Source: Hutsoniella sourekii ATCC 700629 (GTDB taxonomy: Bacteria; Bacillota; Bacilli; Lactobacillales; Aerococcaceae). Taken from it: a stretch of DNA of 32,141 bases. The first letter of the stretch is position 1. Each line of letters begins with the position of its first letter. The position numbers and the translations under genes were made by a program. The notes under the pieces were generated by a model. That model made no database searches. It was not told the DNA's origin and saw only the letters and a list, made by a program, of their open reading frames with translations. The DNA lies in NCBI RefSeq assembly GCF_000518205.1, contig NZ_JADD01000026.1, positions 1 through 32,141 of the forward strand. Reading direction: 5' to 3'. Of this stretch, positions 29,828 to 30,682 are shown piece after piece.

Positions 29828-29890
29828 GAACAACAGAGCTAATGCTCACTTGTACTACATCCGTAATCGCCACAGGCTCAACGGGTATAG
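29828..29890 (-). repeat. Spacer stem-loop element, copy A
   Basis: Minus strand: CTATA-c-CCGT pairs with ACGG-a-TGTAG around a GCC-TGT-GGC hairpin. A second hairpin GAGC-ATTA-GCTC and the conserved end GTTGTTC follow. The adjoining 58 bp up to 29948 repeats almost exactly at 30683-30740 and contains hairpins AACAGC/GCTGTT and TTGC/GCAA. Confidence 0.8.
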
Positions 29891-29955
29891 TAATGATCAA
29901 AACAGCTAAAGCTGTTTCGTACTGGGAGAGTAATTGCTAGAGCAAGTACTCAAAT

Positions 29956-30020
29956 GAACAACGTGACCTAACGGTCACCTTGTACTGTATCCGTAACTCG
30001 CTTCGCTCGAACGGCTACAG
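29956..30020 (-). repeat. Spacer stem-loop element, copy B
   Basis: Minus strand: CTGTA-g-CCGT (30020-30011) pairs with ACGG-a-TACAG (29994-29985), then hairpin GTGACC-GTTA-GGTCAC and GTTGTTC. It starts three bases after the 3' end of tRNA-Ser(TGA) copy 1. Confidence 0.8.
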
Positions 30021-30023
30021 CAA

Positions 30024-30113
30024 AGGAGGATGAGGGATTCGAACCCCCGCACGCTTTTACACGCCTGACGGTTTTCAAGACCGTTCCCTTCAGCCGGACT
30101 TGGGTAATCCTCC
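30024..30113 (-). tRNA. tRNA-Ser(TGA), copy 1
   Basis: 90 nt with a long variable arm. Acceptor GGAGGAT/ATCCTCC, anticodon loop centred on TGA (CTTGAAA). Identical to the copy at 30754-30843. Confidence 0.95.
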
Positions 30114-30141
30114 AAAGTAAAAAATACTACTAAAGTAGTAA

Positions 30142-30213
30142 TGATCCGTACGGGATTCGAACCCGTGTTACCGCCGTGAAAGGGCGGTGTCTTAACCACT
30201 TGACCAACGGACC
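30142..30213 (-). tRNA. tRNA-Glu(TTC)
   Basis: Acceptor GGTCCGT/ACGGATC (with one G-T pair), anticodon stem CCGCC/GGCGG, loop CTTTCAC. Confidence 0.95.
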
Positions 30214-30225
30214 ATAATAAAAATA

Positions 30226-30315
30226 CGGAGAAGGAGGGATTTGAACCCTCGCGCCGCGATAAAGCGACCTATGCCCTTAGCAGGGGCACCTCTTCAGCCT
30301 CTTGAGTACTTCCCC
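30226..30315 (-). tRNA. tRNA-Ser(GCT)
   Basis: 90 nt with a long variable arm, anticodon loop CTGCTAA and discriminator G. The acceptor GGGGAAG/CTTCTCC has one G-T pair. Confidence 0.95.
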
Positions 30316-30342
30316 AAAACCAATACTGAATAATTTTCAGTA

Positions 30343-30416
30343 TGGGCCTGAGTGGACTCGAACCACCGACCTCACCCTTATCAGGGGTGCGCTCTAACCA
30401 GCTGAGCTACATTGCC
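30343..30416 (-). tRNA. tRNA-Ile(GAT) with disrupted acceptor stem (possible pseudogene)
   Basis: The D-arm, anticodon arm (CACCC-CTGATAA-GGGTG) and T-arm are those of a normal tRNA-Ile(GAT), and the 3' acceptor strand CAGGCCC is standard. The 5' strand is GGCAATG instead of the expected GGGCCTG. Pairs 3:70, 4:69 and 5:68 become C-C, A-G and A-G, so only the outer two and inner two pairs remain. Either a dying gene copy or an RNA repaired after transcription. Confidence 0.85.
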
Positions 30417-30422
30417 TACAAG

Positions 30423-30495
30423 CGGTCCGGACGGGATTTGAACCCGCGATCTCCTGCGTGACAGGCAGGCATGTTAACCCCTACACCACCGGACC
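30423..30495 (-). tRNA. tRNA-Asp(GTC)
   Basis: Acceptor GGTCCGG/CCGGACC, anticodon stem CCTGC/GCAGG, loop CTGTCAC, discriminator G. Confidence 0.95.
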
Positions 30496-30515
30496 AGATG
30501 ATGCTAGAATAGCAA

Positions 30516-30588
30516 TTGCGGGGGTAGGATTCGAACCTACGACCTTCGGGTTATGAGCCCGACGAGATGCCAGCTTCTCCACCCCGCG
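30516..30588 (-). tRNA. tRNA-fMet(CAT), initiator, copy 2
   Basis: Same sequence and initiator features (C1-A72, three G-C pairs below the anticodon) as the copy at 29684-29756. Confidence 0.95.
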
Positions 30589-30617
30589 ATAATAAAATAT
30601 ATTCCTTGGTATATGTG

Positions 30618-30682
30618 GAACAACGTGACCTAAGGATCACTTTATACTACATCCGTAATCGCCACAGGCATAACGGGTATAG
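30618..30682 (-). repeat. Spacer stem-loop element, copy C
   Basis: Minus strand: CTATA-c-CCGT with ACGG-a-TGTAG around GCC-TGT-GGC, then TGATC-CTTA-GGTCA and GTTGTTC. The first hairpin follows copy A and the second follows copy B. Confidence 0.8.

Follow-up and report, generated by a model that had tools for sequence, protein, structure and literature searches.

Palindromic modules in the tRNA spacers of Hutsoniella sourekii point to an apparently undescribed family of nestable, non-autonomous BOX/REP-like repeats

Introduction

The window analysed here is the whole 32,141-nucleotide stretch of contig NZ_JADD01000026.1 from Hutsoniella sourekii ATCC 700629, the end of which is occupied by a tRNA cluster on the minus strand. 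Two gaps between tRNA-Ser and tRNA-fMet in this cluster are unusually long, namely the tRNA-Ser(TGA)/tRNA-fMet spacer at 29757..30023 (-), which spans 267 nt, and a second Ser-fMet gap at 30590..30753 (-), which spans 164 nt (the tRNA-Met 3' of each is taken by us to be fMet, from its sequence). The first contains two copies, B and A, of a folded module together with additional hairpins, and the second contains a third copy, C. A first-pass annotation of the window had offered three possible roles for these copies: processing sites between tRNAs, spacing of tRNA precursors, or a small repeat family spread through the genome. What are these modules, and why do they lie between tRNA genes?

Hairpin modules in the two spacers

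All three copies are present on the transcribed (tRNA, minus) strand, as first reported, and each is a module of two hairpins. In the first, or core, hairpin, a 1x1 mismatch separates the outer stem from an inner stem (CCGT/ACGG), and a small inner hairpin follows; the second is set in a frame reading CAAG...GTTG (TAAA...GTTG in copy C). Cores were searched for with two covariance models, R1 built from 12 copies and R2 built from 73. The core of copy B lies at 29979..30024 (-) (R1 E 1.2e-11) and starts at the tRNA-Ser 3' end (aragorn distance 0), and its second hairpin, CAA-g-GTGACC-GTTA-GGTCAC-g-TTG, occupies 29959..29982 (-). The core of copy A (29849..29894 (-), R1 E 1.6e-7) is joined by GAGC-ATTA-GCTC at 29831..29852 (-), and that of copy C (30641..30686 (-), R1 E 1.7e-7) by GTGATC-CTTA-GGTCAC, which includes one G-T pair, at 30621..30644 (-). 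The ends originally drawn for A and C fell about 4 nt short. Further hairpins adjoin the modules: AAACAGC-TTTA-GCTGTTT beside A (29900..29917 (-)) and again beside C (30692..30709 (-)), a hairpin with TTGC-TCTA-GCAA also beside A (29928..29951 (-)), and a long one, CTGGGAGAGTTACTTGC-TTTA-GCAATTACTTTCCCAG, directly behind tRNA-Ser (30714..30750 (-)). The four-base loops described in the annotation are found in the second hairpins (GTTA, ATTA and CTTA) as well as in the flanking ones (TTTA or TCTA).

The paired changes between copies hold up as well. In the outer stem, the CTGTA/TACAG of B corresponds to CTATA/TGTAG in both A and C, which is a G-C to A-T replacement with an additional T-A to T-G change, and the second hairpin GTGACC/GGTCAC of B is replaced by GAGC/GCTC in A. 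As A and C lie within a duplicated tRNA-Ser/spacer/tRNA-fMet segment (99 nt, 95% identical), they represent one lineage, and the independent evidence within the window is the comparison of B with A/C. Both spacers fold better than 200 of 200 dinucleotide shuffles (z -5.78 for the 267-nt spacer, z -5.99 for the 164-nt spacer); the single modules reach z -2.99 (a fold matched by 2 of 200 shuffles), -4.59 and -3.24.

Rfam 15, at gathering score, gave no match over the window elements, nor in 32 scanned loci. The sole Rfam overlap with a core is a match to the LhrA sRNA at locus L156, which ends 4 nt inside the core, so that the core starts within the last 4 nt of the match, at the terminator T-run. 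Elsewhere, the window carries an ordinary glmS ribozyme and SAM-III riboswitch (3781-3926 and 25233-25314, respectively). Repeats of another sort are seen in the tRNA-Thr/tRNA-Leu spacer (31596-31765), in which the 3' end of tRNA-Thr recurs at 31693-31720 alongside a 27-nt direct repeat at 31604-31630 and 31721-31747 and a very weak core match at 31655-31689 (E 9).

Conservation of the fold

The proposal that the structure is maintained by compensatory change received strong support only once copies from outside the window were added. Among 84 distinct core sequences, which were gathered with a model of the same structure and are therefore biased toward paired ones, 98.1% of pair cells are standard pairs (81.6% when shuffled), and 10 of the 11 core pairs have changed on both sides. 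The covariation score reaches 0.503, versus 0.178 for shuffled data, none of 500 shuffles scoring as high. Sliding the partner by 1-3 columns lowers this score to at most 0.134. Our first alignment showed 100% pairing, partly by construction, as its rows were hand-picked from sites with at least 4/5 outer pairs; later sets were gathered by model score.

The second hairpin combines a constant frame with unrelated stems, for example GTGACC/GGTCAC here versus GCTGC/GCAGC or ACGGC/GCCGT in genome G101. Among 18 rows in which its fold was inspected, one (G101j) folds otherwise and a few have shifted outer pairs.

The fold belongs to one strand. G-T cells number 74 and A-C cells 2 (14 versus 2 when a conserved G-T column is set aside), and the sense strand is more stable than the antisense strand for 82 of the 84 distinct cores with RNA parameters and for 69 of the 84 with DNA parameters. 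A T stands beside the inner stem in 79 of 79 distinct sequences, and 55 of these 79 have tandem G-A pairs, closed by C-G in 36 cases and by G-C in 16. The loops of the 55 tandem-GA cores are c-GNA-g (27), c-GNNA-g (8), c-AAA-g (9), c-TTTA-g (2) or others (9). The c-GNNA-g loop class is stable in DNA. In DNA, GNA loops are very stable: extraordinarily stable mini-hairpins are discussed in the available text of PMC10527192, which cites work on d(GCGAAGC). Small loops and tandem G-A pairs thus hint at a fold that is read as DNA, although they are compatible with an RNA reading too. The loop argument is partial: it applies to 35 of the 55 tandem-GA cores and leaves out A and C, which have TGT as inner loop instead of a loop of the DNA type (GNA or GNNA).

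Distribution of the family

A small repeat family is indeed spread through the genome. Of the eight model matches listed in H. sourekii, seven have E<0.02, corresponding to A, B, C and one match on each of contigs 3, 5, 9 and 14. Those on contigs 5, 9 and 14 sit in a common larger element, which is predicted to fold into a branched structure on contig 5 (z -5.74).

Searches of related genomes recovered further copies in which the pairing is kept. With R1, the core hairpin is detected at E<=0.001 in 23 of the 76 genomes of the family Aerococcaceae, and at E<=0.1, where several chance matches are expected, in 33 of them, representing 17 of 21 genera. The highest-copy genomes (R1, E<=0.1) carry at least 41 (G101), at least 39 (G050), at least 32 (G044) and at least 17 (G055) matches, some of which may be due to chance. 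Match numbers vary from 0 to 41 inside one genus; these are lower bounds, as the filters of the genome-wide surveys were stricter and only a few candidates were scored in each genome. Across the order, R2 detects the core at E<=0.001 in 87 of 395 genomes and 33 of the 80 genera sampled. A phylum-wide draw of 398 genomes yielded a match at this threshold only in H. sourekii itself and thus serves as a useful false-positive control. The collection behind R2 used 62 of 90 sources, near-duplicates and weaker ones being left out, and a later collection used the window and 99 of 170 loci as sources, 97 of these 100 containing a match.

Plain DNA similarity reaches less far: unit C matched only its own genome among 100 genomes. 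The first hairpin of copy B recurs in an Aerococcus tenax record of the plasmid collection, where 7 of the 11 places listed have E<=1.2e-4, and the A. tenax element in turn matched 4 of 60 genomes, H. sourekii among them. From sequence, genus g9 appears to be Aerococcus, as a site in its member G050 is nearly identical to an A. tenax site, and genus g27 appears to be Listeria, as L. monocytogenes records match the copy found in its member G157. An exact pattern search of a named genome collection returned 12 stretches, from clostridial assemblies, Candidatus Enterococcus avicola, a Desulfovibrionaceae assembly and an Aerococcaceae strain; given the clostridial and Desulfovibrionaceae assemblies, the core is not strictly confined to the order. 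The Desulfovibrionaceae copies (L064 and L065) are followed, as judged by eye, by a second palindrome in opposite orientation, resembling paired REPs.

Several other matches were set aside. A 24-nt match to the end of the gene that we name rplS from its sequence (L004, E 0.005), in H. sourekii itself, was attributed to chance, its fit being best with copy C and poorer with the remaining copies. Phage matches, to one Enterococcus phage and two Listeria phages, were obtained at E 0.9, and the model found no match in the Enterococcus phage locus (L171). Two records labelled as plasmids, CP127381.1 (L010) and NZ_CP030101.1 (L172), look chromosomal from their size or gene content.

Relation to tRNA operons

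If the modules were a conserved part of homologous tRNA spacers, long spacers should be found in relatives; the result was negative. For the 54 Ser-fMet pairs found in 32 relatives' genomes, spacer length ranges from 6 to 221 nt with a median of 13.5 nt, versus 164 and 267 nt here. Only two exceed 100 nt, one of 102 nt and one of 221 nt that derives from a weak Ser-like match (the count is based on 141 relatives' rows, in which 19 Ser-type rows have no fMet partner within 400 nt). These short spacers argue that the module was added here and is not a conserved tRNA-processing element; the addition most likely occurred in this lineage, the relatives compared including no other species of its genus. 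Similarly, among the 96 other matched loci, a tRNA is found within 60 nt in three (L023, L043 and L067) and within 250 nt in two more (L034 and L065), that is, in only 5 of 96. Neither processing between tRNAs nor precursor spacing thus finds support as the reason why the modules are present, and of the first-pass interpretation it is the structural and repeat-family part that stands.

Presence and absence of modules

The family is multi-copy, short and mostly intergenic (genes being judged from naive ORFs), and its members differ between genomes by whole blocks. At one orthologous site shared by A. tenax and G050, the flanks are nearly identical and each genome carries a block that is absent from the other. 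Behind rpsI, an element that runs without interruption in G049, G054, G108, G012 and G058 contains a core module of 51 alignment columns in genomes G228 and G216. In both cases, inner hairpin arms are present or absent as blocks at one site. The larger elements on contigs 5, 14 and 9 of H. sourekii likewise differ from one another by whole stretches. Inspected by eye, pairs of filled and empty sites show clean blocks, with no evident target-site duplication. A variable tandem array is also apparent by eye, the core being followed by further tandem copies in L161 and standing as one copy each in L162 and L163.

Some copies appear partly vertical, as the rpsI-site copy is found at the identical place in several genera and, in genus g27, a single match is listed in 16 of 17 positive genomes. 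In two loci (L051 and L158), an apparent duplicate of the rpsI 3' tail precedes the element and the DNA upstream of it is unrelated (by eye), as if rpsI had served as an integration site for a larger mobile element.

The core has the orientation of the upstream ORF in 74 of the 104 rows with such an ORF and is antisense to it in 30 (redundant loci, naive ORFs). In some loci, many of them from Listeria-type genomes, a terminator-like T-run lies directly before the core: four or more consecutive T are found in 21 of 100 distinct 5' flanks, versus 9.9% of random 15-mers and 3 of 100 3' flanks.

Origin and maintenance of the modules

We propose, with a probability of about two in three, that the three copies belong to a mobile repeat that is palindromic, modular and non-autonomous, that is recognised as a folded single strand by an enzyme acting in trans, and that sits in the tRNA spacers as a passenger. 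Throughout the order, including Listeria-type genomes, intergenic DNA would acquire and lose the two-hairpin unit of about 65 nt as one block, and the unit would also settle inside larger branched hairpin elements and beside further copies. Here, at least one unit would have entered the short gap behind tRNA-Ser(TGA), and duplication of, or recombination between, the two Ser-spacer-fMet segments would then have spread it. The feature under maintenance would be a single-strand shape, in which a 1x1 mismatch lies between two stems, the inner stem adjoins an unpaired T and often tandem G-A pairs with a small loop, and the second hairpin comes next. The most likely reason, by analogy with what has been proposed for other palindromic mobile repeats, is that copying or insertion of the module involves recognition of this folded single strand by the enzyme. 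Within the tRNA spacers, the module would be a tolerated passenger, co-transcribed with the pre-tRNAs.

Presence/absence alone cannot separate insertion from deletion, which weakens this proposal, as does the outcome of our searches for a mobile context. In the genomes and the plasmid and phage data examined, we found neither an enzyme that could mobilise the module nor a target-site duplication nor an autonomous relative; plasmid and phage records yielded nothing at E<=0.1 for the contig 5 element of H. sourekii and nothing for a stretch of L156, and two core patterns had no match in viral contigs.

The strongest alternative is that the module acts as a functional RNA element within transcripts, for example as a structure at 3' ends or between genes that governs processing, stability or read-through; in the tRNA operon it would separate pre-tRNAs. 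A strand-specific fold and a bias toward the orientation of the upstream ORF are expected under this hypothesis no less than under ours, and it is also consistent with the repeated presence behind rpsI and with copies lying in gaps such as that between tRNA-Thr and tRNA-Gly (L043) and that of L036, which is flanked by genes we take from sequence to be dnaK and dnaJ. As orientation follows the upstream ORF and some copies look vertical, an RNA role keeps some probability. However, most homologous tRNA spacers are too short to hold a module, nearly a third of the rows are antisense, and copy numbers vary widely within one genus. In addition, the RNA of an upstream gene would hardly include a module that begins directly after a terminator-like T-run. 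We thus regard RNA function as an unlikely reason for the presence of the family.

A second alternative attributes covariation to mutation instead of selection: template switching in the course of replication would correct quasi-palindromes and so restore pairing by itself. Correction of palindromes in this way is well established, and stems that vary freely within a constant frame are what it would produce. Yet such correction should also remove the 1x1 mismatch, the tandem G-A pairs and the T that invariably adjoins the inner stem, and should show no preference for G-T over A-C cells, which makes this explanation very improbable.

Finally, the idea that we are dealing with classical REPs, and that a tyrosine (Y1) transposase of the IS200-like/RAYT type moves them, can draw on the intergenic, palindromic hairpin with mismatches, on opposite-orientation pairs 56-88 nt apart, start to start, among the matches listed in G101 and G044, and on the GTAG before the inner stem of copy B, but it is hardly credible, since that GTAG lies in the outer stem, is not unpaired and is not conserved, being read in only some copies (TATAC in A and C), and since PF01797, present in 35 of the 76 family genomes, is absent (0 at E<=1e-5) from H. 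sourekii (G000) and from the high-copy genomes G101, G050, G044 and G055, with no overall association: core and PF01797 occur together in 17 genomes versus 15.2 expected (33 and 35 of 76), or in 11 versus 10.6 expected using the 23 genomes positive at E<=0.001 (hand counts). A Y1 transposase was accordingly rejected as the mover.

The mobile passenger module therefore remains our preferred reading of A, B and C. A bolder extension would see in them members of a hitherto unrecognised class of mobile single-strand hairpins, present throughout the order. Such modules would be swapped as building blocks, would nest where hairpins of earlier copies join, would be read as folded single-stranded DNA, in which small G-N-A or G-N-N-A loops and tandem G-A pairs are stable, and would be moved by a non-Y1 enzyme; we put this forward tentatively, as a possibility that we consider on balance doubtful.

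Comparison with known repeats

We found no description of this family in the literature, our search covering open-licence papers, within which absence is not proof; the family thus appears to be undescribed. Its kind, by contrast, is already known from BOX, REP and Efa-1 elements. According to the available text of PMC3049150, BOX elements of Streptococcus pneumoniae are modular interspersed repeats with predicted RNA folds, whose inner arm can be absent or repeated; such repeats are called probably parasitic there, and BOX is described as nearly restricted to S. pneumoniae and S. mitis, S. suis having related elements. The present family resembles BOX, as described in that text, in being modular and folded and in having an inner arm that varies as a block; unlike BOX, its core spans many genera, a distinction drawn from the description of BOX and not from its sequence.

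Efa-1 of Enterococcus faecalis is, in the available text of PMC2267715, an interspersed family made of a pair of adjacent stem-loops. The present family shares this build, again as known from description and not from sequence; Efa-1 may be a member of it. REPs tagged with GTAG/CGTC and associated with RAYTs are short palindromes, often in opposite pairs and mostly downstream of genes (PMC3733652, available text, in which terms for Firmicutes groups, Gram-positives and Desulfovibrio do not occur). Unlike them, the present core has no conserved unpaired GTAG tag and no association with a Y1 transposase.

MITEs are small, non-autonomous, dispersed and palindromic, with terminal inverted repeats and target-site duplications. 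The present modules share the first four properties with MITEs in general, and differ in that we found no autonomous partner for them.

Its breadth, exchangeable stems and nesting make the present family a variant within a known kind. It carries a warning that covariation in a bacterial spacer need not imply a function for the adjoining genes. Dispersed palindromic repeats are usually described one species at a time, whereas here one frame with exchangeable stems can be traced through dozens of genera, a breadth that makes two questions testable: what moves such repeats, and whether their fold is read as DNA or as RNA.
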